IMG/VR virus record: IMGVR_UViG_3300032229_000108
Location: 1 to 30,408 of that record
Source of the DNA: a virus
Reading direction: 5' to 3' (one strand)
DNA: 30,408 nt
Under the pieces are notes generated by a model. The model did not search any database. It had not been told where the DNA came from and was given only the letters and a program-made list of their open reading frames with translations. Positions 4,851 through 30,408 of the stretch are shown here, piece by piece (position 1 is the stretch's first letter; the number at the start of each line of letters is the position of its first letter). The position numbers and the translations under genes were made by a program.

Positions 4851-5072
4851 TTAATTTTCAAATGGTGGTGGGGTTGGTTTTGGTAAATATTCTATTAATG
4901 GCAAATCACGAACCCAAGTAAAATTCGGGTTTATGTTTTGTTCTATTTCTTCAGTTGATATTATCCAATTATCTTCTATATCTTGTATTGGATTAAAGTA
5001 CGAATCTAAATCATATAATTGTCCGATTAATTCGTCTTTTTGTATTTCTGTTAAAAGTCCTACTTGTATCAT
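4851..5072 (-). CDS. Hypothetical protein, 73 residues, between tail and lysis genes
   Basis: An acidic, proline-ending protein with a NWIISTEEIEQNINPNF stretch in the middle and WVRDLPLIEYLPKPTPPP at the end. Similar short proteins ending in a proline-rich tail are frequent between tail fibre and lysis genes of Bacteroidota phages. Its start overlaps the end of the tail protein (5069-5072, ATGA), so it may be a tail-appendage accessory. Function is unknown. Confidence 0.65.
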   Translation of the reverse strand: MIQVGLLTEIQKDELIGQLYDLDSYFNPIQDIEDNWIISTEEIEQNINPNFTWVRDLPLIEYLPKPTPPPFEN

Positions 5073-5974: not shown

Positions 5975-5984
5975 TCGTCTTTGT

Positions 5985-6428: not shown

Positions 6429-6492
6429 TTTGCTTACTTAAATAGGTTAATAATTTCTTTATGTTTTCGTCTTTTGGTTTGTAGTTCTTCAT
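6385..6492 (-). CDS. Possible 35-residue basic micro-protein coupled to the adaptor gene
   Basis: The ATG overlaps the stop of the adaptor gene as ATGA and the frame (MKNYKPKDENIKKLLTYLSK...) is lysine-rich and helical. It fills the 60-base gap after the adaptor gene and overlaps the start of the next gene by 44 nt. The position and the pattern support it; the length and overlap argue for caution. Confidence 0.35.
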   Translation of the reverse strand: MKNYKPKDENIKKLLTYLSKQNGKRKDKSINGKGK

Positions 6493-7223: not shown

Positions 7224-7224
7224 T

Positions 7225-9006: not shown

Positions 9007-9331
9007 AAACTATAAATGTGTTTGAAGTACTATTCGCCGTATATTGTCCGTTATTTACGGAAAAGTTTACTATACTTTGATTAGTACAAAATATCCTATC
9101 CTTATAAACTACGACCGCACCGTTTACAATTACTAAATCGTAAAAGTGATTTTCTTCTAAATTAAAAGTAGCTTGCAACGTGTCGTAATATTCTCCATTC
9201 GTGTAAGTGTAACCCGTAATTTGTACCGTTTCATTCGTTTGATCGTCCGTAATTGCTACGTAATTAAAAGACGAACTACGTGGTATAAACACAATTGTTT
9301 GAGCGCTTGTCGAAGTAGTTAGAATAATCAT
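8999..9331 (-). CDS. Small structural protein upstream of portal, 110 residues
   Basis: A beta-rich protein (IIFV-type strands; HFYDLVIVNGAVVVYKDRIF near residues 62-81). The short motif YKDRIFCTNQ is seen in small virion proteins of Bacteroidota phages. Lying between the tail-tube candidate and the portal, it is probably a head or neck component. A strong terminator-like hairpin precedes it (9370-9395), so its expression may be lower than that of the capsid genes. Confidence 0.6.
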   Translation of the reverse strand: MIILTTSTSAQTIVFIPRSSSFNYVAITDDQTNETVQITGYTYTNGEYYDTLQATFNLEENHFYDLVIVNGAVVVYKDRIFCTNQSIVNFSVNNGQYTANSTSNTFIVYE

Positions 9332-9369
9332 ATATTATAAACGTCAAAAGTACGAATTTGTCCTTAAAC

Positions 9370-9395
9370 AAAAAACACCTACCGAAGTAAGTGTT
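9370..9395 (-). terminator. UUCG-capped terminator after the tail-tube candidate
   Basis: Read on the minus strand, AACACTTAC (9395-9387) pairs with GTAGGTGTT (9382-9374) over nine pairs (one U-G) around the very stable C(UUCG)G tetraloop, followed by six T. It sits in the late operon between the tail-tube candidate and the portal group, so it likely works as a partial terminator that sets product ratios. Confidence 0.85.
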
Positions 9396-9423
9396 CTTTG
9401 CGCAAGTATATAGAAGAAAAGAA

Positions 9424-9996
9424 TTAAGAAGTTATAATGCTTGCATCAGTGCCAGCGCCATCTTCAAATAGAATTTTTAAAGCCGCTTCAGTAGTAACGT
9501 TCAAGAAATTAGCAGGTGAAACCTCCATAGCTTCAAAAGTCAAATTATATCCGTTAAAGTCACCTAAAGCACTTCCTGAAGAAACAGTTCCTGCAGTAAC
9601 ATCAGCACCTTGCGTCAAGCCCATTAAAAAGAATTGGTCGGTCATTGTTCTTACAACAATTCTCGGACGTCCGTAAGCTAAAAGTTTAACGTTTTTATGC
9701 GTCGTAGCGTCTTGTCTTTTTAATTGAATAGTAAGTGTTTGTTGAAAAAATGTAGTACCGTTTTCTCTACTTGAATTAATTGTAGTTTCAAAGCTATTAG
9801 CACCTTTTAATTCGTATTTATACATAGGTAAAGCACCAACCCCAACTGGCGTCCAGTCGCTTATGTTGTCAGTACCAGCAACGTATGTAACCGCAGAAGG
9901 GTCTAAGTCATCGTAGTTTATAAAGTATATCGCTTTCAATCCTGAAACCGAATCTTTGCATTGTTCAATGCGTCCGTTTGCTATATCACAACTCAT
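9424..9996 (-). CDS. Probable major tail tube (or abundant structural) protein
   Basis: 190 residues, mostly beta. LPMYKYELKG, FFQQTLTIQLKRQD and GDFNGYNLTFEAMEVSPANF follow the pattern of tail tube proteins of Bacteroidota siphoviruses, ending with a polar C-terminus. It lies directly after the major capsid and is framed by two strong terminator hairpins, as expected for a highly expressed virion gene. A capsid-stabilising role is the alternative. Recognition is by pattern only. Confidence 0.55.
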   Translation of the reverse strand: MSCDIANGRIEQCKDSVSGLKAIYFINYDDLDPSAVTYVAGTDNISDWTPVGVGALPMYKYELKGANSFETTINSSRENGTTFFQQTLTIQLKRQDATTHKNVKLLAYGRPRIVVRTMTDQFFLMGLTQGADVTAGTVSSGSALGDFNGYNLTFEAMEVSPANFLNVTTEAALKILFEDGAGTDASIITS

Positions 9997-10019
9997 AATA
10001 TTAGTTTTTTATGTTTAAC

Positions 10020-10048
10020 AAAAAAGGCGGCGTTTATTGCACCGCCTT
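10020..10048 (-). terminator. Terminator after the major capsid gene
   Basis: Read on the minus strand, AAGGCGG (10048-10042) pairs with CCGCCTT (10030-10024) around an 11-nt loop, followed by a T run (10025-10020). It lies 18 bases after the capsid stop. Since the operon continues, read-through must occur; it probably reduces expression of downstream genes relative to the capsid. Confidence 0.85.
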
Positions 10049-10066
10049 ATTTTAGTTTATGTTATT

Positions 10067-11032
10067 TTAGTTAGCTGAATTTACAATTCCGTAAGTAACT
10101 AAATCCGAAGCAAAACCGTATTTCGCATCAGCAGTAAATCTCATTACTACACGTACATTTTGCGAACCGTCAATATCTCCCATGTCAATAACTTTAACTT
10201 CGTTCATGTCATTCATTAAACCAGTCGCAAAGAACAAGTTTGAAGTTTGAGAAAGTAAAGCAGTGTTTGAAGCAAGTCCGTTAGCTAAGAATATTTTAAC
10301 ACCGTCGAAATATAAGTCATTCAATACTTGGTTCGTTCCTTTGTTGTCGTAACCGTTAGCACCTACACCCGAAGCAGCGAAGCCACCTAAAGCACGTACA
10401 TACGCTCTATAAATGTTATTTGAAACATAAAGAGTTAAATCTTCTTTACCGTACAAAGCAGCTGGTAAAGCATCAACGATTGAACCTAATTGAGCAACAA
10501 CGTTTGTAGCGTCAACCGTAGTACCCGCAATTTCTTGAGCAGCTGGCAAAGAAGCATCAGTTGTCAATTGTGTCATGATACCCGCGAATTGTCCAGCAGT
10601 TGCGTTAACACCTCTCCAGATTGAAGTTTCCATTCCCGCAGCAACTTTTTCAGCAGCGTGTGCGATTAAGAAATCAGCGAATGATTTAGGCAAAACGTCG
10701 AATGCAGAATATCCCATTTGAATTGCATCCCAGTCTTGTCTAAAATCACTTTTACACAATTGTAAGTTAACTTGAAAAGATTCAGGTTGAAGAATTCTTT
10801 CAGTTAACGTTACTGTAGAAGTAGGATCGAAATCACAAGTTGCGTTTTTGATAATGTCATCAGTTGCAACTCTTTTAATTACTTGTTTGTATTTTACATT
10901 CGGGTATATTGTGATACCATTTTTCTCCAAGGTTGGAGCGCTTAATAAAGCAGCAGCAATATATTTTCCAGCGAACTCACCAGCATACGTAGTTGTAATG
11001 CTTTGAGTAGTTGATAGGTTAATTTTTTCCAT
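10067..11032 (-). CDS. Major capsid protein (HK97-like)
   Basis: 321 residues, typical of HK97-fold capsid proteins without a long N-terminal scaffold part. Features include an N-arm (MEKINLSTTQSITTTYAGEF), a helical middle (QDWDAIQMGYSAFDVLPKSF, then HAAEKVAAGMETSIWRGV), ALYGKEDLTLYVSNNIYRAY as a P-domain-like segment and a beta-rich C-terminus. It follows the scaffold and decoration genes and is followed by a strong terminator, consistent with abundant expression. The scaffold is a separate gene (11500-12084). Confidence 0.85.
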   Translation of the reverse strand: MEKINLSTTQSITTTYAGEFAGKYIAAALLSAPTLEKNGITIYPNVKYKQVIKRVATDDIIKNATCDFDPTSTVTLTERILQPESFQVNLQLCKSDFRQDWDAIQMGYSAFDVLPKSFADFLIAHAAEKVAAGMETSIWRGVNATAGQFAGIMTQLTTDASLPAAQEIAGTTVDATNVVAQLGSIVDALPAALYGKEDLTLYVSNNIYRAYVRALGGFAASGVGANGYDNKGTNQVLNDLYFDGVKIFLANGLASNTALLSQTSNLFFATGLMNDMNEVKVIDMGDIDGSQNVRVVMRFTADAKYGFASDLVTYGIVNSAN

Positions 11033-11055
11033 TTTTATTTAGTTTTTTATTTTAT

Positions 11056-11478
11056 TTATACTACGGTTAAAGTAATTGCACCAGCAGAAGTACCAAGTCC
11101 GAAAACATACCAGTTTGTTCCGTCACCAACTAATTGAACGAAATCTCCGATTGTGTCAGCAGAAGCAGAAAAAGTAATCGTGTTTTCATCAGCTCCAGGA
11201 ACGTTAACGCTATTTACGATTACACCACCTTGAATTTTGTTTGTAGCCGCTTTAATAGTCCAAGCAGTCGTTGCAAATAACGCACCTACTACGAACTTGT
11301 AAGATTGTCCAGCGCCATCAGCAACGGCTGGTAATGTAATTTGCGCTCCAGCAGCAGCGTTTAAGATAAATACTTTACCGCTATCTTCAGCAGTTAAAGT
11401 TGTTGCACCCGTCAATGTTTCTATTTGACCTACTTGTCGTAAAGAATCATTTGAGATACTTGTTAATGTTGTACTCAT
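11056..11478 (-). CDS. Capsid decoration/head fibre-like protein
   Basis: 140 residues, all beta, low in charge. ILNAAAGAQITLPAVADGAG and GDFVQLVGDGTNWYVFGLG form the conserved frame of decoration or fibre-like proteins in which beta strands alternate with Gly turns. It lies between scaffold and major capsid, the usual place for a capsid decoration protein. It shares its design with the 147-residue protein at 5985-6428, so the two may be related by duplication. Confidence 0.65.
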   Translation of the reverse strand: MSTTLTSISNDSLRQVGQIETLTGATTLTAEDSGKVFILNAAAGAQITLPAVADGAGQSYKFVVGALFATTAWTIKAATNKIQGGVIVNSVNVPGADENTITFSASADTIGDFVQLVGDGTNWYVFGLGTSAGAITLTVV

Positions 11479-11499
11479 TTTTTATTGTTTTTTAAATTA

Positions 11500-12084
11500 T
11501 TACTTATTTAGTTTGTTTAAAACTGAATCCATTATAGTACGCTGTCTTTTTGTAGCATACTTGAATATTTCAACTTTATTTTCATTTTCAGGGTTAAAAG
11601 AAATTGGTTTAACTTCTTCGTCTTTTGATAGTTCAACTTCTTTAACCTCGTTCAATTTGCTTAATTCAGCTTTTAGCGTTTCGTTCTCTTTTTTCAACGC
11701 TTCAATTTCAGAAAAGAAACTTTCTTTAATTGTGCTTTCAACTACTTTTTTAGGAGCGCTTTTAGCTGTTTCCATTTCTTGTTCTTTTTTCGCTTCTTCT
11801 TCGATAGGTTGTTCAACTTCTACCTCTTCTTCTTCTTCAACCTTTTCTTTAATTTCGGAAATAATTCCTTCTTCAACTACGATCAACATACGCCCGTCTT
11901 CCATTTCGTATTCTCCTACCGGCACGGGTATTTTTTGTTCGTCTTCCGTTACTACGAAAATTTCGTTACCAGCTTCAAACATATCAGCTTCAAGAACTGT
12001 TACGCCATCCATTAGTTTCATTTGTTCAAGTTTTACTTCCATTCCAAGTAAAGTTTTGATTTGGTTTATTAAGCTATTTTTCAT
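11500..12084 (-). CDS. Capsid scaffolding protein
   Basis: 194 residues. The N-terminus has a small beta region (MDGVTVLEADMFEAGNEIFV, then IPVPVGEYEMEDGRMLIVVE). The centre is an extended Glu/Lys-rich coiled coil (EEEEEVEVEQPIEEEAKKE; EALKKENETLKAELSKLNEV), and the C-terminus is basic (YATKRQRTIMDSVLNKLNK), as expected for the capsid-binding end of a scaffold. It lies between the protease and the capsid. Confidence 0.8.
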   Translation of the reverse strand: MKNSLINQIKTLLGMEVKLEQMKLMDGVTVLEADMFEAGNEIFVVTEDEQKIPVPVGEYEMEDGRMLIVVEEGIISEIKEKVEEEEEVEVEQPIEEEAKKEQEMETAKSAPKKVVESTIKESFFSEIEALKKENETLKAELSKLNEVKEVELSKDEEVKPISFNPENENKVEIFKYATKRQRTIMDSVLNKLNK

Positions 12085-12094
12085 TTTTATTTAT

Positions 12095-12493
12095 TTACGG
12101 TAATTTAATATCTTTAATATATTCGTATGTTTTGTAAGCTCTAAAATTATTGCCATATTGAGTATTAAACTCATCATACTCTTTTATATTAAACGGGTCT
12201 ATTCCTAATTCTTTTGCTTGTTGAGCAAACTTCTTAGCTAATGGTTCTTCTAACTTCTTAGTTTCTTCCCATAATTTATAAGCAATTTCTGATTTTTTTT
12301 TCAATGCTACAATTTCACCCGCAATTTTAGAACGTTCCTTTTCAATTGAATCGTAATCGGGACCAATTTTTTTTTTGTACAAATCGGTTATTTTTTTTAT
12401 TTCATCTAATAAACTTAAATGAATTTCGTGTGTAGCCAAATTTGTTGTTTCTTCTTTAAACAACTTTCCGAAAACTGTTTTTAGTGTATTCAT
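12095..12493 (-). CDS. Helical protein of unknown function, 132 residues
   Basis: A highly charged helical protein (SLLDEIKKITDLYKKKIG, IAGEIVALKKKSEIAYKLWE), with a C-terminal half containing KELGIDPFNIKEYDEFN. It lies between the Cys-rich protein and the scaffold and is therefore probably a head-assembly factor. No family is recognised. Confidence 0.65.
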   Translation of the reverse strand: MNTLKTVFGKLFKEETTNLATHEIHLSLLDEIKKITDLYKKKIGPDYDSIEKERSKIAGEIVALKKKSEIAYKLWEETKKLEEPLAKKFAQQAKELGIDPFNIKEYDEFNTQYGNNFRAYKTYEYIKDIKLP

Positions 12494-12530
12494 AACTTAT
12501 TAACTTTTAAAATTTTTACTTGTTCCTTTT

Positions 12531-12725
12531 TTAGCCGTTTTGCCGTACTATCGTGCGTACCCCGTTGTTATCTGTTACCGTTACATTTTGCGGCGTTACG
12601 CTGGCTGTTTTGCCTATTCCTTGCGCTTCTAAACTACCGTCGCAACAATCTTTGTGATATTTTCCGTCTTTACATAGGCACCCACGTTTACCACCACGGG
12701 GACTAACTTTACTTGCTGTTCTCAT
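12531..12725 (-). CDS. Small Cys-rich structural protein, 64 residues
   Basis: Carries GCLCKDGKYHKDCCDG (residues 15-30) followed by SLEAQGIG, a motif seen in short proteins of Bacteroidota phages between tail and head genes; the four Cys could bind a metal or form disulphides. The rest is Thr/Val-rich. Its start overlaps the end of the protease gene by 17 nt. Exact role unknown; a virion component is likely. Confidence 0.65.
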   Translation of the reverse strand: MRTASKVSPRGGKRGCLCKDGKYHKDCCDGSLEAQGIGKTASVTPQNVTVTDNNGVRTIVRQNG

Positions 12726-13308
12726 ATTTACTTATTAAGTCTTTTAATTTTTTTATTATTTCATCTTCGTTTTGTTGTAAACTCATTTCGTACTTGTCTA
12801 CAAAGTGACCTTCAATACTAAATCCTTTTACTTCGCCGTCTTTTACCTTTTGCCAAACATCATCGTTGTTTACTTTCATTGAAATCATCCAAGTTCCTTT
12901 AGGTAAATTAAAGTTGTATAATCGGCTTTTATCCGTCTTTTCGTCTTCAATTATCCAGCTTTCAACAACACTCATTCCGTCAAGCATTTTGCGTTCGTGT
13001 TCGTAGGTAGCGTTGTTTTGATTTGAGCGCATTAAAAATAATTCACTTGCTTTGCGTACCGTATCCTCACTAAAGTAAATATAGAACTCTTTGTCCTTGT
13101 TTCTACGGTAAATTTGTTTATTAGGCACTAAAGCCGCACCCATCAAAATACGTTTTTCCGCATCTACTTCTTTTAGTTCAACTTCATGCTTTTTTAACGC
13201 TATAAAGTTTTCCTCGATCGCGGGACTTTCAACAACGGATACCGCATTAATACCCGCTTCTAATTTTGTATCGTCTATTAGTAGTTCTATTATTTCAACT
13301 TTTGCCAT
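12709..13308 (-). CDS. Prohead protease (XkdF-like)
   Basis: 199 residues. The core matches XkdF-type phage serine proteases: LMGAALVPNKQIYRR (residues 55-69), a His at 104 in ATYEHERKM, and Ser164 and His168 in VKGFSIEGHF. His104, Ser164 and His168 fit the His-Ser-His catalytic pattern of herpesvirus-type assemblins. The C-terminus is helical (IIKKLKDLISKYENSK). It would mature the capsid and degrade the scaffold at 11500-12084. Confidence 0.85.
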   Translation of the reverse strand: MAKVEIIELLIDDTKLEAGINAVSVVESPAIEENFIALKKHEVELKEVDAEKRILMGAALVPNKQIYRRNKDKEFYIYFSEDTVRKASELFLMRSNQNNATYEHERKMLDGMSVVESWIIEDEKTDKSRLYNFNLPKGTWMISMKVNNDDVWQKVKDGEVKGFSIEGHFVDKYEMSLQQNEDEIIKKLKDLISKYENSK

Positions 13309-13319
13309 AATTAATAAAC

Positions 13320-15470
13320 TTATAAAGTTGCGTTTTGTACTCTATTCCTATCTAAAGCTTGTGCGCTTGTTACCTCTCCACTAACTACGTAGGCTTGTGT
13401 CGGCGTTTGTTGTAATTGCGCTAATTGGTTTATTCCGCTTGAACCTATTGTATTAAAATTCGCAGTCATAGGCGCGCCCGCTGGAGCGTTCGAACCACCA
13501 CCGCCACCGCCTGAAGAAGCACCACCCTCGAATTTTTGCGAAGCTATTTTTTTAACATTCAATAAACCAGCCGTAATTGCCGCAGCCATAGCAATATAAT
13601 TAAACGGGGGTGGTGAACTTGCTAAAGCCGTGTTTGCCGCTTTGTAAGTGTCAATAACCGCATTCGCTATATTAACCGCCTTTTGTATTTGAAACGCTTT
13701 CTTTTGTTGCTTTTCACTTTTGCCAGCAAATAATTCAGTAAGGTTTGAAATTGTTTGTAAAGTGTCTTGTGCGGCTTGAATACTATTGTCATGTAACTTT
13801 TTATTATTTGCCGCTATTTCAGCATCCGTTGCTTCTTGCGCTGCTACTTCAGCAGCGGCATATTTTCTATTTATAGCAGCGTAATCTTTATTAAATTTTT
13901 CAGTTAGTTCTTTTTGTAGTTCCGCATTCGTACCCGCTAATTCATATTCCTTATCGTATGCAATTTGTAAGTCTAAAAGTTCTTGTTCCTTTTGACTATT
14001 TTTTAATTTTTGTAAAGCGTACCATTGTTCGTCTTGTAGTTTGATTTGTTCGGCATTTTTTAAAGCTAAAGCATCGTATTCTATTTTGTCGTATTTATCG
14101 TTAATCGCTTTATCGTCTAAACGTTTACTTTCAATAGCTTGCGCAGTTAGTTTGTCGTAATCTTCTTGTTTAAGTTTACCCTCTTTAAAGTTTTTATCCG
14201 TTTCTTGTTGTTCGTATTTGTATTTAATTCTCAAAGCGTCTAATTCTTTAGCACGCCCTTCTTCCATCAAACGGTTTTTTTCTTCTTCCATTTGACGGGT
14301 AATGTCTATTTTTTCTTGTGCGTTTTCTCTTTCATTGTTTACAGAACTTTGACCCGATTTAATATCCATGTCACGAAGCTCCAATTTGCTTTGTGCTAAT
14401 TCGTTTTGCGACTTCTTTAATAAGCTATCAGCGGCTTTAATTTGTTTGTTTAATTCAGTTTCATCGGCTAAAATTCCAACCGAAGTAAATATATTTTTAA
14501 AGGTATTTTCAACGGTAGTGATAGCGCCTAAAGCAGTTTTTTTAACGTCTTCAGTATTAAACGTTATTAATTTACCTAATCCAATAGCATCAGCAATTGA
14601 ATTAACTTTATCAATAAATAAATCAATAGGCTTCGCGGCAAAGTCTAAAGCAATTGAAATTAAATATTTATATAATTCGTATTGAAGAAGTAAACCCTTT
14701 TCTTTCATTTTGCTAAACTTTAATTCAGCTTTTGCAGTTTCTTCAACGTTTTTTAAATTATCAATATTATCTTTTACAATTCTTTCTTGTAATTTGATTT
14801 TACCTTTTAATATTTCTTTATCGGATTTGCCTTGTAATTTTAAAACAAAGTTTTGATTTTCGTAATCTTCTAAAGTTTTGTTTGATATTTCTTGGTTTTT
14901 AGCAGTTAATTTATTTAATTCTTTTTGCTCCGAAGAAACACCGCTTACGGCTTCAGAAATTTCATCCCAGTATGCAACTACCGTACCCAAGGCAACTACG
15001 AACGCACCGATACCCGTAGCTATTAATTCGGTTTTAATTCCTTTTAATGCAACGCCCGCTTTTTTACCTAAAATAGCAAAAGCATCTCCAGCTTCCATGA
15101 CTCCATTTATACCTTGCGTTAAAGCCATTACGGATTGAACTCTTAATAAAGCTTCTTGAACTTTGTCACTTTCTACACCTATCAACGCAAGCCCGCCCTC
15201 GAACGCTTGTATACCGTTCATAACACCATTTATAGCACCTTCAGCAGCAGCGAATTTAGCATCAGGATTAAAACCTTTTATTAAGTCCTTACTGAATTCA
15301 ATTTGGTCTTTTAAATCAGCAGCCCCTTTAGCAGCCTTAACCGCTTGCTCCGAAGTTTCGCCGTATTGTTGTGAAAGCTTTTGTAATTCTTGTACGGCTT
15401 CCCGGTATTGTTGTTTTAATGACTTACTATTGTCTTGTATTTCTAATTCTATTGTCCGTTTTTCTGCCAT
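13320..15470 (-). CDS. Tail tape measure protein
   Basis: 716 residues, long helical and coiled-coil throughout, with a hydrophobic segment at about 149-168 (LIATGIGAFVVALGTVVAYW), a central charged region and a Gly-rich C-terminal part (ASSGGGGGGSNAP) after a second hydrophobic zone (PFNYIAMAAAITAGLLNVKK). Length, helices and position after the tail hub genes are those of a siphovirus tape measure. By the usual ratio of about 0.15 nm per residue the tail would be near 107 nm long. Confidence 0.85.
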   Translation of the reverse strand: MAEKRTIELEIQDNSKSLKQQYREAVQELQKLSQQYGETSEQAVKAAKGAADLKDQIEFSKDLIKGFNPDAKFAAAEGAINGVMNGIQAFEGGLALIGVESDKVQEALLRVQSVMALTQGINGVMEAGDAFAILGKKAGVALKGIKTELIATGIGAFVVALGTVVAYWDEISEAVSGVSSEQKELNKLTAKNQEISNKTLEDYENQNFVLKLQGKSDKEILKGKIKLQERIVKDNIDNLKNVEETAKAELKFSKMKEKGLLLQYELYKYLISIALDFAAKPIDLFIDKVNSIADAIGLGKLITFNTEDVKKTALGAITTVENTFKNIFTSVGILADETELNKQIKAADSLLKKSQNELAQSKLELRDMDIKSGQSSVNNERENAQEKIDITRQMEEEKNRLMEEGRAKELDALRIKYKYEQQETDKNFKEGKLKQEDYDKLTAQAIESKRLDDKAINDKYDKIEYDALALKNAEQIKLQDEQWYALQKLKNSQKEQELLDLQIAYDKEYELAGTNAELQKELTEKFNKDYAAINRKYAAAEVAAQEATDAEIAANNKKLHDNSIQAAQDTLQTISNLTELFAGKSEKQQKKAFQIQKAVNIANAVIDTYKAANTALASSPPPFNYIAMAAAITAGLLNVKKIASQKFEGGASSGGGGGGSNAPAGAPMTANFNTIGSSGINQLAQLQQTPTQAYVVSGEVTSAQALDRNRVQNATL

Positions 15471-15604
15471 TGTTTACGCTTTTTTTGATTATAAACTTTT
15501 TTAATATCGTCCGTTAATTCGTGTTTTCCTTTTGCCACGTCTACAATTTCACTTACTCCGAAAAAATTGTCCGATTTAAGTAGTTCTAAAATTAGTTGTA
15601 TCAT
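15449..15604 (-). CDS. Possible 51-residue protein between hub and tape measure
   Basis: The ATG overlaps the stop of the large tail protein as ATGA, and the frame (MIQLILELLKSDNFFGVSEI then VDVAKGKHELTDDIKKVYNQ) fills the otherwise empty 130-base gap, ending 22 nt inside the tape measure gene. It is helical and ends in a basic tail. The coupling and sensible composition make it likely real. No family is recognised. Confidence 0.55.
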   Translation of the reverse strand: MIQLILELLKSDNFFGVSEIVDVAKGKHELTDDIKKVYNQKKRKQWQKNGQ

Positions 15605-17946
15605 TCTTGTAATATTGTTATTTGATTTGCCACCTGTTGCCCGTTGCCTAAAGTGTACGTTACCGTTAAAATAATTACTTGCGTACTTGAATTTTCCGTT
15701 ATTAAGTTTTGAAATTCTTCAGTAATTAAGCTGTCCGAATTTTCGGCTAAAATGTTTTGCGGCGTGTTCGTGTTTTCAGGAATACAAACGGATATTGCTT
15801 GACTACTTGTTATTGTACTCGGCGTAATTGTAACACCGCCAAACGTTGTTGTAATTGTAGCACTTACCGCACCGTTTACAAACGTAATAGGAACGTCTAA
15901 ACATTGTGCGTCAAAACTTGGTACTAAAGGTCTACCGCTTGTAATTGGTCGAAAGTCTAAATACAAACTAAAGTCAACTTGTCCCGTACTTAGGTTGCTT
16001 TTCATTTCGTTTATTATATAGCGTTTATCTCTTATAATAAGACGATCATTTAATTTAAGGTTTGTAAGTAAAGAAACGGGTAAATTCGTTTTTACGTGAA
16101 CTAATCTATTCTTAAGGTTGAACAAGCTAAACAAATAAGCGCTATAATATTCAGCGAATAAACCCTGTTGAACTGTTTCTAAATGAATAACGGAATTATC
16201 AGCACCGAAATTTAAACTATATTTCGTGTTTTGGTATGTAAGGTCTTGACCGAATAAAGCAAATGAATCAATATTCAAATGCGTAGAACCAGTATAGAAT
16301 TTAATAGGATGCGCGCTCAAATCGTTACTTTCACCATACAAATAAAGTAATATAGGCTTTGGCGTATATGCGTTTAAACTTTCGTTTAGCGTATAACCGA
16401 ATATAGCATAGTCACCTGAAGAATGTATTGAACGTGAAAATAATAAATTCTCAAAGGGTACGTCAATAATATATTCGTCGCCATCGTAGCTATATTGGTA
16501 TTCAACATCCCCGTATTGCTGGCTATTTGCTTTAAAGTAATTACGGTTAACAAAACTTTCGGATTGTTGGTATTTGAAAGCTATTTTTTTATACAACTTA
16601 ATTCGTTCAATATCAATTGAATCTATATCCGTGTATTGTGTAATATCTACGATAGCGCCTTGTCCGTACCAATCTTCTAAAGGTAATATTTCAAAAGTGT
16701 TTACATCAGTAGCTACGCACGTACAATTAAACTCTTTTAACACGCCCGAAAAGAAGTCGCTAACTTTCATATCAGGCAAAGTAGAATTAACGCTTACATT
16801 ACCATTTACAACAACTTGATCAATACTTGCCGATTGTGCAAAATTAACCAAGGTCGAACCAACTAAAAACTTGTATTCGTAAAACAAAACTAAATCAAGT
16901 GTCATTGAAGCAGTCGTACGAATTTTAAAAGTTATATTCGTGTCGCATCCTACCGTGTCTTGAATAGTACACAAAGTAAAAAAGCCTACGCTGTCACGGG
17001 TCAAAGTTTGAAATAAATTACCGTCTTGATATACGTCTAAATAAACCGTACCTAAAGCACTTTTTGCACTTAAATACATTTGATAGCTGTGCGTTGCGGA
17101 AAACTGTCCAGCAGTATCTTCATTTACTATGTCTATTGAATCAGTAGTTACGTTTATTCCTCCCGTTATAGTTAAGTTACCAACCGTTGAAGTAATGGCG
17201 TTTATTGTTACGTTTTGCGCTTCACTTATCCAAGCGTATTCGTTCGTGTTTTTGGCGTATAAATATACTTCAGTAAATCGCGGGTCGGTTAAAAAGTTAC
17301 CCGTAAAAGTAACCCCGTAATCATTTGCAATTGCTTGAAATATTCTACTAACCCTTACTGCTGGAAATAATTCATCGTAGTGTATTGCTTTTGAATTAGT
17401 AGTTACGTCTTCAGTACCTTGTCTATATTCCCAAACTCGATTACTTGCAATCAAAGGATAACGAACCTCGTAATTACTTGCCGTATCAGTTATACGGTCG
17501 TAAATTTCATTTGCAGTAAACGCAAACTCTAAATTGCTTAAATCTAATAAGTTTAATTTATCTTCGCCGAATAAATCTTTTAGCGTTCGTATTTCACCGT
17601 AAAAAGTTATTTGATAGTTTTCAGGTAAGCCGTTTTTTATATTCGCCTTTTCAATTGACATTACTCCACGTCTAAAAGTAGTTAAGTCAATTTCTATTAA
17701 TGCGCTCCTACGAATATTGTAATCGAATAGCGTAGTAGAATCTAATGGGTCACCTATATCGGACTGGTAGAAATGTTTGAATATTTTATTATTAACAGTC
17801 GAAGCGGGGACGGTAAAGCTTTGCGAAAAGTCCGTAAATACTTTTGAAATATCGCTAATATTTTGAACGCTTGAAGTAACATTAATTTGTTCGTCTTCAA
17901 ATAATTCAACCTTTTGCCCTTCAATATAAAGTTGTACTTGCCTCAT
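15601..17946 (-). CDS. Tail hub/baseplate-type protein, 781 residues
   Basis: A large, mostly beta protein beginning MRQVQLYIEGQKVELFEDEQ, then SSVQNISDISKVFTDFSQSF, a start that recurs in long tail proteins of Bacteroidota siphoviruses. Many Ser/Thr-rich strands and a long C-terminal domain rich in Thr and Ile follow. It lies between the Dit-like protein and the tape measure, and so is a candidate baseplate hub or tail-associated protein. No peptidase or lysozyme motif is seen. Confidence 0.65.
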   Translation of the reverse strand: MRQVQLYIEGQKVELFEDEQINVTSSVQNISDISKVFTDFSQSFTVPASTVNNKIFKHFYQSDIGDPLDSTTLFDYNIRRSALIEIDLTTFRRGVMSIEKANIKNGLPENYQITFYGEIRTLKDLFGEDKLNLLDLSNLEFAFTANEIYDRITDTASNYEVRYPLIASNRVWEYRQGTEDVTTNSKAIHYDELFPAVRVSRIFQAIANDYGVTFTGNFLTDPRFTEVYLYAKNTNEYAWISEAQNVTINAITSTVGNLTITGGINVTTDSIDIVNEDTAGQFSATHSYQMYLSAKSALGTVYLDVYQDGNLFQTLTRDSVGFFTLCTIQDTVGCDTNITFKIRTTASMTLDLVLFYEYKFLVGSTLVNFAQSASIDQVVVNGNVSVNSTLPDMKVSDFFSGVLKEFNCTCVATDVNTFEILPLEDWYGQGAIVDITQYTDIDSIDIERIKLYKKIAFKYQQSESFVNRNYFKANSQQYGDVEYQYSYDGDEYIIDVPFENLLFSRSIHSSGDYAIFGYTLNESLNAYTPKPILLYLYGESNDLSAHPIKFYTGSTHLNIDSFALFGQDLTYQNTKYSLNFGADNSVIHLETVQQGLFAEYYSAYLFSLFNLKNRLVHVKTNLPVSLLTNLKLNDRLIIRDKRYIINEMKSNLSTGQVDFSLYLDFRPITSGRPLVPSFDAQCLDVPITFVNGAVSATITTTFGGVTITPSTITSSQAISVCIPENTNTPQNILAENSDSLITEEFQNLITENSSTQVIILTVTYTLGNGQQVANQITILQE

Positions 17947-19019
17947 ATTACGTTGTTTATTGCATTGAAAGCAAAGTCAAACTCTAAAGTGTAGTTAATC
18001 ATTTTTTGATTTATGTTTTTGAATAACTCGGTTTGCTTCGTGTTAATTTTAGCGGGTAAACTATTTAACAATATTCTTTCGCTTGTCATCAGCTGTTCAA
18101 GTAAATCGTTATAACTTTCAGTTACCCAGTCCGTATTTACTTTAATACTACGTTTTGCCGTTGTGTTAAACACCTTTCTTTGACCTTCTAAAGTATTGTA
18201 ATTCGGGAACGTGCTTTGCATCAAATTATATTCCGTGTTTTCAACGCTAAATATATCGTTACTTGCAGCGAAAAAATAAGTTCTTTGCCAGCATCCATAA
18301 CGGTTTACAAAGTCGCACAAAACGGGCGTATATCTACAAAGTTCAAACGGTTTGAAATAACCCGTCCAAACAGTAACATCACTACCTAAAATATTTATAA
18401 TTATTTCTAACTTATTTCCAGCAGAATAATAATTTTCATAAACCCTCGGTACGTCTAAAATTGAATTGTTTGTTAAGTTTTGCGTAAATGTTGCAGCCGT
18501 TACCAAGTTAGTATATTTCGCTTTGTACGTTGTCAAAGTTTTAACCATTATATGACCCGCCCTCCTACTTGAATTTGAACTTGGGCTTGTGCCATCGTAG
18601 TAATAGAAAAACGTTCCCTCGTCGTGTAATATGTCGTAGGTCGGTGTGTAATTATATCCTTGTTCATACCAACCAAAACCGTCATAAGCAACGTAAGAAT
18701 TTGTACTAAGTAGCGTGTAAACACCAGCGTCTAATTTGTATCTTTTTAGTTGAACGTTGCACCATTGCGTAGTTTGACTTGATGGAAAAGTATTATATAT
18801 TTCTTGTCTTGTATTCCAGCTGATATACTCACGAATATACGGGCTTATATTGTAATACGTCTTTACGTTGTTTGAAGCGGGTATTAATTTACTCAAAGTA
18901 TAAGTAGGGGTTGCGGGTGCGCTCCCCGTACCGTTCCAAATAAATACTTCTAATTTAGAACCGTCTTGTCCAGTTTCGGATATTTCTACTATATAAGGTG
19001 AACGTGCGAAAATACTCAT
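17943..19019 (-). CDS. Distal tail-like protein, 358 residues
   Basis: Begins MSIFARSPYIVEISETGQDG, followed by KLEVFIWNGTG and TLSKLIPASNN, then YYNISPYIREYI. This strand pattern is typical of a tail tip protein family of Bacteroidota phages. Many aromatic residues and two Cys pairs occur in the middle. It overlaps both neighbours by ATGA-type junctions, so it is coupled to the hub. The assignment as Dit is by position and pattern only. Confidence 0.6.
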   Translation of the reverse strand: MSIFARSPYIVEISETGQDGSKLEVFIWNGTGSAPATPTYTLSKLIPASNNVKTYYNISPYIREYISWNTRQEIYNTFPSSQTTQWCNVQLKRYKLDAGVYTLLSTNSYVAYDGFGWYEQGYNYTPTYDILHDEGTFFYYYDGTSPSSNSSRRAGHIMVKTLTTYKAKYTNLVTAATFTQNLTNNSILDVPRVYENYYSAGNKLEIIINILGSDVTVWTGYFKPFELCRYTPVLCDFVNRYGCWQRTYFFAASNDIFSVENTEYNLMQSTFPNYNTLEGQRKVFNTTAKRSIKVNTDWVTESYNDLLEQLMTSERILLNSLPAKINTKQTELFKNINQKMINYTLEFDFAFNAINNVI

Positions 19020-19531
19020 TTTTTAGTCTTTAAATTTTGGTCTAATATTTCGTTTAAAAGCTTTTCAGCGTCTAAACCATACTTATCTATTAACGTGTCG
19101 GGTAGTGTTTTGTAGGCGGCTTCAAATGGCTTAGTAAAAAATAGGCTTGGTCGTATTCCGTATTTAAATATACTTCGAGCTATTGCAAATTGCAATCCTT
19201 TTCTACTTTGAAATTGTCCCGTAACATTTCGTGGTGCTATTCCTCTTTTTACAATCCACTTATCCAACTTACTTGGTGGTGGCATTTTAGTAGTGTACGA
19301 ATAAGGCGTATCGAATTTACGCTCCGTTCCTGAAACCCCTTTATCCTGAAAGTTACCGTAAGGCTCCATCTCGAAATAAATACCTATTGAATTAGGCATC
19401 TCTTTAACTTCGCCTTTTATTGAATTGCTTAATTTACCACTTGAATTTTTACCCAACCTTTGTAAATTAGCTTTTGCTTCAGCTACTACTAAATCGCGAA
19501 ACTTTTCAAGAGCCTTTAATCTTTCACTCAT
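19016..19531 (-). CDS. Tail completion/HK97 gp10-like protein, 171 residues
   Basis: The start is set at the ATG at 19531, in a TAATG overlap with the preceding stop; a TTG two codons upstream is an alternative. The protein shows EKFRDLVVAEAKANLQRLG, then SGKLSNSIKGE and EPYGNFQDKGVSG, followed by the GLQFAIARSIFKYGIRP segment. That order fits tail-completion proteins of the HK97 gp10 kind. It lies between a second tail-completion-like gene and the Dit-like gene. Confidence 0.6.
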   Translation of the reverse strand: MSERLKALEKFRDLVVAEAKANLQRLGKNSSGKLSNSIKGEVKEMPNSIGIYFEMEPYGNFQDKGVSGTERKFDTPYSYTTKMPPPSKLDKWIVKRGIAPRNVTGQFQSRKGLQFAIARSIFKYGIRPSLFFTKPFEAAYKTLPDTLIDKYGLDAEKLLNEILDQNLKTKK

Positions 19532-19986
19532 TAACAAACAGTCATTTCATTAGGAACTAAAATATCAAAGGTCATAGTCCAACCAGCTAAATAATTCTCG
19601 AACCTTTCAGCAAATGCTTCTAATGTAGGGTTACCGTCTACTTGAAACGGTAGTGAAAATAAATCGCCTCTACGTAGTTGTTCGTATAACCTATTCAGGA
19701 CCGCTAACATTGTATTAAGTACGTAAATCTCATTATCATTACCGTCGAATACATTTGTATCTTCGTCTTTTGATTTGTTTACAATATCCATCGCCATAAT
19801 GCTTACGTTAAAACGAATTATATTGCTTTCAAAAGTTGCGTTGTTTACTATAATATGGCACAACGGGAAAATAGTTTGTTTAGCCAAGTCAACCGCAAAA
19901 ATATCGCCTTGCGTTACCGTGTTAATAAACGGATCGTTATCTAAATTGCTTTTAAGCGTGTCAAGTATCGTGTAATAATTAGCCAT
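19531..19986 (-). CDS. Tail terminator/completion-like protein, 151 residues
   Basis: Begins MANYYTILDTLKSNLDNDPF, with TVTQGDIFAVDLAKQTIFPL and a beta-rich centre, and ends LAGWTMTFDILVPNEMTVC. This is the usual outline of the tail terminator fold in Bacteroidota phages (helix, then strands ending in a DI-type motif). Its ATG overlaps the stop of the frameshifted tail chaperone as ATGGCTAA. Confidence 0.6.
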   Translation of the reverse strand: MANYYTILDTLKSNLDNDPFINTVTQGDIFAVDLAKQTIFPLCHIIVNNATFESNIIRFNVSIMAMDIVNKSKDEDTNVFDGNDNEIYVLNTMLAVLNRLYEQLRRGDLFSLPFQVDGNPTLEAFAERFENYLAGWTMTFDILVPNEMTVC

Positions 19987-20742
19987 TTTTTGTCATTCTT
20001 TTAATTTCCCTTTCTTCTATTTCTCGTTTTTGCTTTTCGTAGGTAAGCCATGTAAGACACTTTCGAACTCCCAGTCCGGTAACTTCATCAAATTTTGTAA
20101 GGTCGCCTTGAGCAATTGCATAGATTGAATTATACCACCCCCATCTTTTATTAAATTGCGCTCTTTCGCTGAAGTCATTAATTTCTTGTTCGTCTTCATC
20201 TGGTTCTCCAAATAAGTAAGCGTATGTTGAACTAAGTCGCTTCCTAAACTCGAAAAAAAAACCGTTGCACCCATGACAACATTTAACGGTGCGTATTTCA
20301 TCAGCTCCGAAAATTCATCCGTTCCCGTGTATTCGAATATCTCGTACCGCTCTTTGTGTTTCTTTGTGATAGGTCGATACATTACCGCCATCGCTTTGTG
20401 AAAAGTTTCTACGTTTGAAATATTACTTTCTAAATCAATGTACTCACCGAAACTCATGTCTTCTAAATTAGGAATAAACCCGAATTCAGTATCTTGAATT
20501 TTAAACGTAGCTTGAAATTTAGGCTTTGCTTTGAATATTTCGTTTAAATGTACGGTTAACTCTTTTACGTCACTCCATTTTACCTTAACTACGTCTTTCA
20601 TTTTTAAGCCGCAAAATATTTCGATAGTCTTTTGACCTATAAATTCTTCGTCGTTCGACTTTTCAACTACCCGCATAAATTCTTGGTAACTCTTTAACGG
20701 TATTTCACTTAATGAAGTAGGTATTACAATTTCTGTTTTCAT
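19979..20742 (-). CDS. Tail assembly chaperone, -1 frameshift product (254 residues)
   Basis: The first 163 codons are those of the gene at 20017-20742. At the run of nine T (20261-20253) a -1 slip after the second TTT continues in an open frame for 91 more codons, beginning FEFRKRL and including LFGEPDEDEQEIN, KRWGWYNSIYAIAQGDLTKF and CLTWLTYEKQKREIEE. This extension is well-formed protein, with the KWGWY-type and D(L/I)x(K/R)F motifs I associate with tail chaperone extensions in Bacteroidota phages. It stops at 19981-19979, overlapping the ATG of the next gene. This parallels the G/GT pair of phage lambda. A sequencing error in the T run is the main alternative. Confidence 0.7.
20017..20742 (-). 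CDS. Tail assembly chaperone, unshifted product (241 residues)
   Basis: Begins MKTEIVIPTSLSEIPLKSYQ and is alpha-helical, with the region GFIPNLEDMSFGEYIDLESN in the middle. The frame remains open to 20017 past the slip site. The portion after the slip site may be only a shadow of the -1 frame (GGG GGT GGT at RWGWY), or a real short form needed in excess as in lambda gpG. It lies between terminase and tail completion genes, and 91 bases downstream of the terminase gene's stop. Confidence 0.7.
   Translation of the reverse strand: MKTEIVIPTSLSEIPLKSYQEFMRVVEKSNDEEFIGQKTIEIFCGLKMKDVVKVKWSDVKELTVHLNEIFKAKPKFQATFKIQDTEFGFIPNLEDMSFGEYIDLESNISNVETFHKAMAVMYRPITKKHKERYEIFEYTGTDEFSELMKYAPLNVVMGATVFFSSLGSDLVQHTLTYLENQMKTNKKLMTSAKERNLIKDGGGIIQSMQLLKATLQNLMKLPDWEFESVLHGLPTKSKNEK
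20253..20261 (-). promoter_or_regulatory. Slippery sequence (T9) for -1 frameshifting
   Basis: In the sense strand the codons read GTT TTT TTT TCG over nine consecutive T. The heptamer T TTT TTT fits the X XXY YYZ rule for -1 slippage. Both frames stay open downstream for more than 230 nt. No obvious downstream stem or pseudoknot was worked out by eye. Confidence 0.65.
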
Positions 20743-20833
20743 TCTATATATTAACTTTTAATTCGTGTTTTTGTAGTTTGTAAAGATAATTCACACTATT
20801 TGCATACTTGAACAGGTGCGAAATATTATTTAT

Positions 20834-21991
20834 TTACCAAATGTGATATTTACCATAGTTAGAATTCATTCCTAACGTTTCCATCTCATGATAGCGCAGC
20901 GCGTCAATAGCGTGGTTGTTTGTGTCAATCGGTTTGTTTAGGCGTGTGCCTTGCTTATCCGTGTCCCAGCAATACGCTCGAAGCTCTTTAATTAGGTTTG
21001 TACTATTTGAAGTAACTAAATATTCATTACGTTGCATAACGTCTATTCCGTAATTTATTGAATCCTTGCCCTTTGTAACGCCTTTAATTGTTATTCCGTA
21101 GCGTTTTATTTCTTCAATGCTTTTAGGCTCGCTTGAATCAGCGTAAACGGGTACGTGTTTCGGTAGTGCGTTTGCAATATCACTGTTTAACATTCCCGTT
21201 TGATATTTCAGTTCGTTTATTATCCGTTGCCCGTTGTAATTGTATATTTCTATTATTGCGGATGGATCGTTGGTATAACCAAAGTCTAATCCAATACCGA
21301 TTAAATTCGCTTCTTTAGGTAGTATATCAATAGTTTTCCAATTACTGAATATAACGCCCTCAAGCATTCCTATTTCACCAAGTCCGTACACCCTCCACCA
21401 GTTGCTCCAGTATGCGCTTGTTTCGGCTTTTAAACGGTTCTTTTCTATTTGTTGTACAATACTATTATCAAGTGCTTCATTGTCTTTGTACGTGAGAATT
21501 AAGAAATCGCTGTCTTGTTCGTCTTTTAGTTCGGTATGTACCCAGAATTCATTAGCGGGGTTGAAGTCTAAATAGATAGCTTTCTTTGTACGTATTGCAA
21601 GTTCGTTATAACTTTCAAAGGTTACGTTATTACATTCGTTTATATATAGAACGTCACGCCTTGCACCCCGTAATTTAGAACTGTCATCAGCACTAAAAAA
21701 TTCTATATAACTACCGTTGGCAAATTCGTACCGCAGAAGCGACTTATTAAAGCGTTCGTCGAAATACCTACCCGTGTCTTTCATGATACGTAAGAAGTCC
21801 TTTAAAGCACCCCTACGTAAATGCGGTATTGTTTCAGCTACTACGCTTATTTCCGTTTTCGGGTACGTTGCAGCCTTTGTAATTAGAATCGGAAGTATTC
21901 CGTATGTCTTGCCCGCACTTGTGCCGCCCTGAATAATTTTAATTCGTTTTTTTAAAGCTTCTATTTTACGAATTGCTGTCGTTATTATCAC
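20834..21991 (-). CDS. Terminase large subunit
   Basis: 385 residues, the length of PBSX-type large terminases. The ATPase domain has Walker A GGTSAGKT (22-29), Walker B VLYINE (114-119) with the catalytic Glu119, and the nuclease domain has GLDFGYTNDP (Asp236), VYADSSEPK (Asp285) and NNHAIDALRY (Asp363), three acidic residues of the RNase H-like site. It packages DNA together with the small subunit, whose gene overlaps it by 26 nt. The start is a GTG at 21991; no ATG lies before the Walker A motif. Confidence 0.9.
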   Translation of the reverse strand: MIITTAIRKIEALKKRIKIIQGGTSAGKTYGILPILITKAATYPKTEISVVAETIPHLRRGALKDFLRIMKDTGRYFDERFNKSLLRYEFANGSYIEFFSADDSSKLRGARRDVLYINECNNVTFESYNELAIRTKKAIYLDFNPANEFWVHTELKDEQDSDFLILTYKDNEALDNSIVQQIEKNRLKAETSAYWSNWWRVYGLGEIGMLEGVIFSNWKTIDILPKEANLIGIGLDFGYTNDPSAIIEIYNYNGQRIINELKYQTGMLNSDIANALPKHVPVYADSSEPKSIEEIKRYGITIKGVTKGKDSINYGIDVMQRNEYLVTSNSTNLIKELRAYCWDTDKQGTRLNKPIDTNNHAIDALRYHEMETLGMNSNYGKYHIW

Positions 21992-22394
21992 TTAGTTTGA
22001 ATAAAGGTTGTTCGATATTCGTTTGTTCAACTTGCTCTTTTAAGTTGTTTAAACGTTGCGTAATGCTTGCGTTGTACTGTCCTACCATGCCGCCCGTAAT
22101 TTGATCTTCGCGTATTTCTTTGCGTATGCGTGAACAGATGGGGATATATTCCGTGTATCTTTTATCAATGTTCTTAAAATATTGTTCTACTTCGCCTACA
22201 TTATCCCAGCAAAATATTTCAAATCCTTCCATTGTTAAAGGTCTTTCAAGTGGCTCGGCTCTTTCTTCAAATTCTTTACCACCGAATACGCTTTTAATTC
22301 TCGGGTTCGCTTTTACGTCTTCTTTGTATTTTTTAAATAGTTCGTAAAGTTGTTCAGGACTATCTAAGTTTCTTGGTCTACCTACTTTTGCCAT
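21966..22394 (-). CDS. Terminase small subunit
   Basis: 142 residues. MAKVGRPRNLDSPEQLYELF, then PLTMEGFEIFCWDN, ICSRIRKEIREDQITGGMVG and YNASITQRLNNL match the layout of small terminases in Bacteroidota phages: a basic start, a helical centre and an acidic Asn/Ser-rich end. It recognises the packaging site. It overlaps the large subunit gene, and the 58-codon gene before it overlaps its start by 17 nt. Confidence 0.85.
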   Translation of the reverse strand: MAKVGRPRNLDSPEQLYELFKKYKEDVKANPRIKSVFGGKEFEERAEPLERPLTMEGFEIFCWDNVGEVEQYFKNIDKRYTEYIPICSRIRKEIREDQITGGMVGQYNASITQRLNNLKEQVEQTNIEQPLFKLSDNNDSNS

Positions 22395-28141: not shown

Positions 28142-30408
28142 TTAAAATGGTGTTTCTGTTTTTACTTCAATGTTATCCCATACATCCGGTGTTGGTTTAT
28201 CATCAGATTTAATTTCGTAATATCTGATACCATTACTTGACACATTTTCAATCTCAATTTTCTTAAATTCAAAGTAAGATCTCAGCCATGAATTAAAATT
28301 TCTATTTGTCAGCCATTTTCTGAAATCCTCATAGTCATTAATAAATGTTTCAAACCATTGCTTATAGTTTATCTGTTGACCAGGAGTGAATTTTTTATCA
28401 TCCATCCAATCAATAAACTCCTTTGATGTTTGATTGATGAGTTTTCTAATCTTTAAATTCTTATGCTCATAAGATACAAGGCCATGCTCAAGATAATAAT
28501 GTAAACAGTTAATCATGAAATGGTCAAACCTTGCCCACTCATCCTGGTCCCAATCATCAAACAACATACAGTTAAACTCATCCAATGGTGATTTGTGAGC
28601 TCCAAAGTAACTTGATAACTCAACTTCAAACATCCTCCTTGTGAATGATCCTCCCTCTGCTCTGATTGTATAATTAGTAGATATCAATACTTTTGGTGAG
28701 TCTTTTACCGGTAACTTTACAGCATCTTTGCCCTTGTATTCTATTGTAATACCCTCTGTGATAATGCTAAATAACTTCTCAAAATCAAAATTCTTTTTAA
28801 CATCATCAAATGCTAACACCTGGCAGTCAGTTGATACTGTCTGATAAGGAAAGGATTTATTAAAATCAAATGTTTTTCCATCAATTGTGGATACTTTTTT
28901 CATTTGACTTATTGCATTTGTCAATAATCCTTTACCACTTCCCCCATTAGGATTATCAGATATTACCTCATCATTCAAAATTATTGCTTTGTTGTTAGCG
29001 TTTGTCTTATGTGAGTGCAGTAAATATCCTATGACTGACTTCATGCTGTTATATCTCTCTGTTTCTTCACCTGAAATCAACCAGATAAAAGTTCTGAACA
29101 TGCTCTCATGGTGATCTGCAGTCATGAAATCTCTATTGATAACTTGATCCTTCCAAATATAAAAGTCAAGCTCATCATAATCGTATATCTCATACTTATC
29201 CTTGTAAACTTTGACCGCATTATTTTGATAATATATCATAGCAAACTCCTTCTCATCCTTTAAAAAGTCAACATGTGCAGTGTCAATCATTGATAAGTAT
29301 GGTGTTGTAAAGAGTTTTGTTCTATTTGCACACAGGTTGAATACATCAATTTCATTTGCAGCCTCTAAATTTCTAATGACATGGTCCTTTATTTTGTATT
29401 CATTGACCTCCTCAAGGAAATTCTCTGCCTTAGAAATAAACACAAAAGTTTTATCATTACCAACAGGATAGTATTTGTAATAATTCAATGACTGTAAATA
29501 CAATTTCATTTTGAATGAGTTGATTTGTAGCTTGCCATCTGAACTGTACTCCCAAAACTCATTTATTTTTGTAGTTTCTTTGATGATGTTTATCTCATTG
29601 TTCAGCTTTTCAACATCAATATCAGAGAATTGCTGTTGTATATCCTTCTCTTTTTTGCCACTCATGACCATTACTATGAGTTTCTTTTTACGTGGCTTAT
29701 CCTCAAAGAATTTACTATTGAATTGAGCAGTGTGTTTATAAGCTGAGTTAACAATGTTTGTTATTTCAGAAATCGGAAAGCCATTCTCTGCATATCTTGA
29801 GCAGTAAGTCATGGCAGTTTGTTTGTTTACTCCAAAATCATTGAATGATGCTGCCAATTTAAAGACTGAATTGTTCCGGTTGTTTCTGTCATAATGTTTT
29901 TGAAACCAAATAACCAACTTATTTGCAATAACATCCTGGTCATTGATAGGAATATTTGTCACATCACCTATCTCAATGGGCTCAAGTTCTGTTATTTGTA
30001 TTTGAGGTGTGTATATTTCAGCATCAACGTTGACATATATCAATGGATCATAAGATTCAAAACAAGCTCTTGAAACATCTTTGCCGGATTGGTCCACATT
30101 AGGAAATTTCTCTTGAATTGTTTTGTAGATACTTTTGAACTCAGTATCATTGGCCACAGGTTGGATTCTGTAAAGTATTTTTACTCCATTGCGAGGTGAA
30201 ATCCATGCAGAAAAAACATATTTATCTGACTTGATATTCTTTTTGAACTCTTTTGCCTCATCCAATGTATTGAAATCATCAAAATCTAAAACCATCAAAC
30301 CGGATGATTTTTTTAATCCACTCTTTGACCTAGTAGTGAATACCCCATTGAAGCAAACAATAGGCAATTGAGCTTTTAAAAACTTCTGCTCATCCTCATC
30401 CTCTGTAA
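28142..30408 (-). CDS. Primase-helicase (VirE_N/BT4734-like + DUF5906-like), continues at 1-244
   Basis: This is the main body of the 795-residue protein whose first codons lie at 1-244 across the join. Numbering from the ATG at 244, a BT4734/VirE_N-like domain covers about 60-200: GLMVLDFDDF supplies a DxD pair, FSAWISPRNGVKILY follows, and SGKDVSRACFESYDP closes it; this order resembles primase-polymerase motifs I-III. The C-terminal helicase has Walker A NPNGGSGKGL (529-534 core), Walker B CQVLAFDDV (569-580) and VLISTNYTIRAEGGSFTRRM (sensor and arginine finger). It would unwind and prime phage DNA. It is the first gene of the early operon and next to the candidate origin. In the window the frame is cut only by linearisation. 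Confidence 0.85.
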   Translation of the reverse strand, partial: TEDEDEQKFLKAQLPIVCFNGVFTTRSKSGLKKSSGLMVLDFDDFNTLDEAKEFKKNIKSDKYVFSAWISPRNGVKILYRIQPVANDTEFKSIYKTIQEKFPNVDQSGKDVSRACFESYDPLIYVNVDAEIYTPQIQITELEPIEIGDVTNIPINDQDVIANKLVIWFQKHYDRNNRNNSVFKLAASFNDFGVNKQTAMTYCSRYAENGFPISEITNIVNSAYKHTAQFNSKFFEDKPRKKKLIVMVMSGKKEKDIQQQFSDIDVEKLNNEINIIKETTKINEFWEYSSDGKLQINSFKMKLYLQSLNYYKYYPVGNDKTFVFISKAENFLEEVNEYKIKDHVIRNLEAANEIDVFNLCANRTKLFTTPYLSMIDTAHVDFLKDEKEFAMIYYQNNAVKVYKDKYEIYDYDELDFYIWKDQVINRDFMTADHHESMFRTFIWLISGEETERYNSMKSVIGYLLHSHKTNANNKAIILNDEVISDNPNGGSGKGLLTNAISQMKKVSTIDGKTFDFNKSFPYQTVSTDCQVLAFDDVKKNFDFEKLFSIITEGITIEYKGKDAVKLPVKDSPKVLISTNYTIRAEGGSFTRRMFEVELSSYFGAHKSPLDEFNCMLFDDWDQDEWARFDHFMINCLHYYLEHGLVSYEHKNLKIRKLINQTSKEFIDWMDDKKFTPGQQINYKQWFETFINDYEDFRKWLTNRNFNSWLRSYFEFKKIEIENVSSNGIRYYEIKSDDKPTPDVWDNIEVKTETPF
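30286..30408. repeat. Terminal direct repeat, right copy (123 bp)
   Basis: Identical to bases 1-123; see that entry. The repeat lies inside the primase-helicase gene, which argues for a circular assembly rather than a dedicated end sequence. Confidence 0.95.

Follow-up and report, generated by a model that had tools for sequence, protein, structure and literature searches.

Tail assembly chaperones produced by frameshifting are well known in phages. In lambda, a -1 shift near the end of the N-terminal domain shared by gpG and gpGT yields, at lower abundance, a longer form that has an additional C-terminal domain, and in P2 (gpE and gpE+E') the -1 frameshift occurs near a T-rich site, GGTTTTTTG. 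In both phages, reading without the shift comes to a stop within a few codons of it. A downstream stimulatory RNA structure is frequent for ribosomal -1 frameshifting, although it is not obligatory. The gene described here likewise has a T-rich candidate slip site near the end of its N-terminal domain, followed by a C-terminal extension in the -1 frame. It lies in a viral DNA of 30,408 nucleotides (positions 1 to 30,408 of IMG/VR record IMGVR_UViG_3300032229_000108), hereafter the window. The first and last 123 bp of the window (1-123 and 30286-30408) are identical and a gene spans the ends (2-244 and 28142-30406, minus strand), so that the window is a circular or terminally redundant phage genome. 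The features on which the analysis relies are the following:

20253..20261, minus strand: T9 run, the candidate slip site (frame-0 context ACG GTT TTT TTT TCG)
20254..20260, minus strand: heptamer T_TTT_TTT, in frame, inside the T9 run
20017..20742, minus strand: frame-0 gene, 241 aa, made of the shared N-terminal domain (161 codons) and the unshifted tail
19979..20254, minus strand: -1 frame extension, 91 codons and TAA (coding codons 20254-19982)
20017..20253, minus strand: overlap read in two frames, dual-coded as judged by purifying selection in both
19531..19986, minus strand: next gene, 151 aa; its ATG overlaps the -1 stop, and it serves as a flank for control in the rate tests
13320..15470, minus strand: tape measure protein, four genes downstream of the switch (phrog_3336, E 1.2e-18)
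20834..21991, minus strand: large terminase gene, directly upstream of the switch gene; conserved neighbour

A reading of the sequence alone, without database searches, had pointed to the nine T's, read as GTT TTT TTT TCG at 20261-20253, and to a 91-codon -1 extension closed by a TAA over the next ATG; the window sequence agrees on both counts. Counted from the two Phe onward, the unshifted tail is 80 codons long. From 20314 the -1 frame meets no stop until the TAA at 19981-19979, which overlaps the ATG of the next gene (19986-19984) as ATGGCTAA. The extension consists of an acidic linker and then a domain, predicted to be helical, with the motif WGWYxSIY...GDxTKFDEVT...CLTYLTYEKQK. An independently started -1 ORF was considered and rejected for the window: ATG, GTG and TTG are absent from the -1 frame through extension codon 60, which rules out such a start in that part.

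From the comparisons below we consider it likely that the gene encodes a tail-assembly-chaperone-like protein in two forms, the choice being made by a slip at T9, with an ancestral -1 C-terminus and an overprinted, selected frame-0 tail. The two forms would share the 161-residue N-domain. We infer that both are made, in unequal amounts: most expression would give the frame-0, G-like form, with its tail of about 80 residues, and a minority, by slipping -1 at T9 or through an mRNA that has gained one U, would give the longer GT-like form with the helical C-terminal domain. The latter would represent the ancestral C-terminus, encoded in a single frame in other phages, mostly of Bacteroidota, and the frame-0 tail would have been overprinted on it and would by now be under selection as well. 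In analogy to lambda, the tape measure would be coated or stabilised by the abundant G form, and the rarer GT form would bring in the tail-tube subunits.

To collect relatives, IMG/VR was queried with the frame-0 protein, with the -1 extension, with a marine member and with alignments. The loci are mostly metagenomic viral contigs, a few contigs being represented by two or more loci; sites were counted as distinct once identical surroundings had been removed. In a first set, the in-frame T_TTT_TTT was invariant in all 305 loci covering the site, two further loci ending before it. A wider set of 383 loci gave 259 distinct sites in 31 lineages (<60% identity). The run was T9 at 244 of these sites and T10 at 15, in two codon phases; at none of the 259 was it shorter than nine, and the in-frame T_TTT_TTT was always included. 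The isolates Nonlabens P12024S and P12024L and a MAG contig (L310) carry it as well. Conservation of a -1 switch at T9, which the sequence-only reading had proposed, is supported, and the relatives that it called for exist: 81 of 82 records have the extension in the -1 frame, the exception being a plasmid record (L327) whose genes are broken and whose run is T8. In the wider family the in-frame heptamer is missing from just one of two such plasmid records. L327 and another (L328), with T8 or no run, were left out of the counts because their genes look broken, presumably through assembly errors. They are filed as Lysinibacillus (CP045836.1) and Escherichia fergusonii (NZ_CP040811.1) plasmids, with broken tail gene frames, and look like Bacteroidota-type phage genomes misfiled as plasmids.

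As to how the slip occurs, slippage of the ribosome and of RNA polymerase appear about equally likely as its main source, and both may contribute; every T9 holds the ribosomal heptamer, so the sequence fits both mechanisms. That RNA polymerase alone is responsible, by adding or dropping U's at the run, has very nearly an even chance. A U10 mRNA would then be the source of the -1 product, and from U8 or U11 mRNAs would come a third product, ending 4-5 codons later. All sites have 9 or 10 T, in all 31 lineages and in two codon phases, and transcriptional slippage is expected on A/T homopolymers of about 9 or more. Slippage is described at 9 T or A, and 9 T's are used productively in Thermus dnaX (PMC5009743), while for E. 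coli RNA polymerase slippage on T8 amounts to about 10% and is biased towards poly(T) (PMC6260861). The +1 frame, moreover, meets a stop within 4-5 codons in 373 of the 383 loci, but the LG/FR codons in the other two frames also account for this, and the presence of the ribosomal heptamer in every T9 also tells against a purely transcriptional switch. A purely ribosomal -1 frameshift, with tandem tRNA-Phe slipping on T_TTT_TTT in the way of lambda and P2, has a probability a little short of even. The X_XXY_YYZ heptamer that it needs is in frame at every site; the two extra T's would merely encode hydrophobic residues, since the outer T's of the run are second bases of V/L/I codons in frame 0 and of F/L codons in the -1 frame, and hydrophobic-Phe-Phe is found at the corresponding position in single-frame relatives too. 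Characterised tail chaperones also shift ribosomally, P2 near a T6G run. However, U_UUU_UUU is a weak or modest slip site in E. coli if compared to A_AAA_AAG (PMC5009743), no consistent downstream RNA structure was found in 17 sequences (folding z from -2.2 to +1.7), and the run is never shorter than nine T's, itself a substrate for slippage of bacterial RNA polymerase. We considered this lower limit as proof of transcriptional slippage and rejected it as such, because hydrophobic codons in two frames explain both outer T's. The broadest claim, in which RNA polymerase and not the ribosome operates the switch at T9, up to three isoforms arise (long frame-0, -1 fusion and short +1) and both long C-termini are held in the same DNA and selected across a large Bacteroidota-type phage group, is doubtful when taken as a whole. 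Elsewhere in the window, a small gene of the structural region (12095-12493, minus strand) has T9, T10 and T8 on the plus strand at 12293-12398, i.e. A-runs in its coding strand, and these are possible further slippage sites.

The gene is probably a tail assembly chaperone, an assignment for which we rely on weak homology and on analogy. Matches to phrog_166 were obtained for 19 of 70 family members (weak, the best at 3.2e-5) and also for P2 gpE (4e-7), the product of a gene with an annotated -1 frameshift that belongs to Pfam family Phage_TAC_7 (PF10109) and stands immediately before the P2 tape measure. The window's own protein matched neither phrog_166 nor any Phage_TAC Pfam family, and lambda G/T, HK97 gp13 and T4 gp26/gp51, taken as single sequences, gave no hhalign match to the family; homology to T4 gp26/gp51 was thus tested and dropped. 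A conserved -1 recoding site near the end of a shared N-domain, as expected of a chaperone, is present at the sequence level. Two other traits are typical, if not strictly defining in the case of the first: a position directly upstream of the tape measure, and a frame-0 product that ends shortly after the slip. Neither is seen here: wherever a relative includes both, the tape measure lies four genes from the switch, at a distance of 4.6-7.7 kb from the slip site, and the frame-0 product of the window runs on for 80 codons. The four-gene separation had been remarked on from the window alone, and it turns out to be a conserved property. The idea of a lambda G/GT-like chaperone accordingly stands as regards the layout and is probable as regards the identity, through the phrog_166 matches and the analogy. 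It is improbable, in our view, that the gene encodes instead a protein of tail or head-tail assembly that relies on frameshifting without being a tape-measure chaperone. Its place beside the large terminase, four genes from the tape measure, would suit such a protein, as would the existence of single-frame relatives with no recognised G-only form, but the link to phrog_166 and P2 gpE speaks against it, and no other chaperone candidate was seen between the switch gene and the tape measure in the window. The gene order is unusual more generally: in 5069-22394, the terminases, switch gene, tail genes and tape measure precede the protease, capsid and portal genes, and the terminase-to-protease stretch is conserved in relatives.

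Structure prediction adds the following. In the AlphaFold model of the frame-0 protein, pLDDT is 82-93 over the N-domain (69 in the first ten residues) and falls to 31 in the tail. The extension is modelled as helical with modest overall confidence, its acidic linker being low in confidence. Fold and profile searches of the PDB gave no match. Fold searches matched many uncharacterised phage proteins, the Nonlabens protein and a protein of Flavobacterium phage 6H, and the best named chaperone among the viral matches was weak (E 0.16).

Selection on the two ends was compared through substitution rates in independent close pairs, for which the upstream part of the gene served as the per-amino-acid calibration. 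Relative to expectation, changes silent in the -1 frame were reduced in the overlap to 0.30 (z = -14.7) for the window's clade, 0.39 (z = -13.4) for the marine clade and 0.46 (z = -15.6) for the remainder; the flanks, i.e. the upstream part of the gene and the next gene, stood at 0.97-1.17 in the same test. In the three clade sets, changes altering frame 0 and silent in the -1 frame numbered 117, 88 and 180 against neutral values of 425, 316 and 515 (0.28-0.35), and those silent in frame 0 and altering the -1 frame 52, 76 and 78 against 422, 346 and 541 (0.12-0.22). No depletion was seen among changes silent in both frames (13/6.6, 12/9.1 and 19/12.7), which argues against RNA structure as the cause of the silent-site depletion; such a cause is disfavoured by the inconsistent folding z-scores as well. 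Past the frame-0 stop (codon 57), -1-silent changes of the marine clade recover to 119/145, or 0.82. In the window's clade silent sites are partly depleted there too (0.32-0.55 in one test, 0.60 by category), possibly because of the start region of the next gene, and the marine clade is therefore the cleaner control. The frame-0 tail usually has 57-92 codons, also in lineages at 28-38% identity, and 206 of 209 unique extensions have no frame-0 stop in their first 57 codons, whereas random synonymous recoding of the -1 protein leaves 57 codons free of stops in only about 6% of trials each. The third frame contains 3-11 stops in each of the 209. Codon shuffling of the window sequence alone was weakly significant (P 0.05), so that the weight is placed on the family comparison. 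One relative (L102, L240), a single contig, has a frame-0 tail ending after 21 codons with an intact -1 extension, possibly an error or a natural loss.

Purifying selection being detected on the frame-0 tail and on the extension, these rates indicate that the overlap is dual-coding. The sequence-only reading had found the extension more like a conserved protein than the unshifted end. It was right about the extension; the unshifted end is, however, no less real, since constraint appears in each frame when synonymous sites are compared across relatives. Could the frame-0 tail nonetheless be a non-functional shadow of the -1 extension, with G effectively reduced to its N-domain? The conserved NGDGI motif of the tail is a shadow of KWGWY, the Nonlabens-like lineage has a short tail of 18-27 codons, and the structure model of the tail is of low confidence. 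Yet we hold this quite improbable: the deficit of changes that alter frame 0 alone, its relaxation beyond the frame-0 stop and the scarcity of frame-0 stops all speak for function, and over the first 15 codons, in the window's clade, constraint is even stronger on frame 0 than on the -1 frame (0.04 vs 0.22), the order being reversed farther on.

Concerning the origin of the two ends, a profile built from the fused (-1) protein can be aligned with single-frame phage proteins over columns 6-233 (E 3.6e-13, score 94), and against the same proteins the N-domain scores 65 alone and 66 with the frame-0 tail. These proteins come from phages mostly of Bacteroidota, including Duneviridae: Flavobacterium phages 2A (ANB40923, phrog_25418) and laban6-1, Cellulophaga Ingeline_1, Bacteroides BT-TP2, Polaribacter Leef_1 and a Microcystis phage (homologues occur in more than one Microcystis phage). 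Searched separately, as had been suggested, the extension matches their C-terminus by itself (E 2e-4), and profile alignment found no homology between the frame-0 tail and that C-terminus. The -1-shifted protein is therefore probably the ancestral full-length form, and the frame-0 end would be the one overprinted on it. The single-frame homologues thus resemble the present gene over the N-domain and the C-terminal domain, but consist of one uninterrupted frame, in which no alternative end was found. In Flavobacterium phage 6H (L312, 10068-10927), a short diverged stretch with a net +2 nt relative to 2A breaks the single-frame homologue. Homopolymers are error-prone and some relatives elsewhere do have the gene in a single frame, but the possibility that the gene really has one frame, and that an error of sequencing or assembly within the T run has broken it, can be dismissed with near certainty, as hundreds of independently assembled contigs and the isolates P12024S/L share the identical out-of-frame arrangement.

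Among described genomes, the Nonlabens phages P12024S and P12024L (Inhavirus) have the same gene, T9 and -1 extension as the window, annotated as two hypothetical genes (P12024S_38-39 and P12024L_40-41), with the difference that their frame-0 tail has just 27 codons. The family is thus a widespread 'hypothetical' one that annotation splits or truncates, for which the present analysis offers leads to function and a link to single-frame relatives in isolates. We found no earlier mention of the overlap among open-licence papers. T4 gp26 and gp51 are alike by analogy, both matching phrog_150 and gp51 additionally phrog_634 over its C-terminal part, but they are two separate genes without frameshift, and no homology to the family was detected; in the T4 record (L309, 3803-5229) they form a G/GT-like pair from two genes. 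The dnaX gene of Thermus thermophilus (PMC5009743) likewise uses a run of nine T to give alternative frames, in a different gene and host; there slippage is described, whereas here the candidate slip site is known from its sequence. The locus is a clear case for testing how much RNA polymerase and the ribosome each contribute to a phage switch. P2 gpE is close in that its N-domain matches phrog_166, as do N-domains of family members, but its site is T6 rather than T9, its tape measure follows directly and E ends about 20 nt past the annotated shift site, as opposed to the long frame-0 tail seen here. With lambda gpG/gpGT, to which no sequence homology was detected, the layout is shared, but the lambda gene directly precedes the tape measure, from which four genes separate the present one, and the G/T overlap is 19 nt in the lambda record as compared to 237 nt in the window. 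What sets this locus apart from both is that nearly the whole extension appears to be read and selected in the other frame as well, so that about 240 nt would encode two protein ends.
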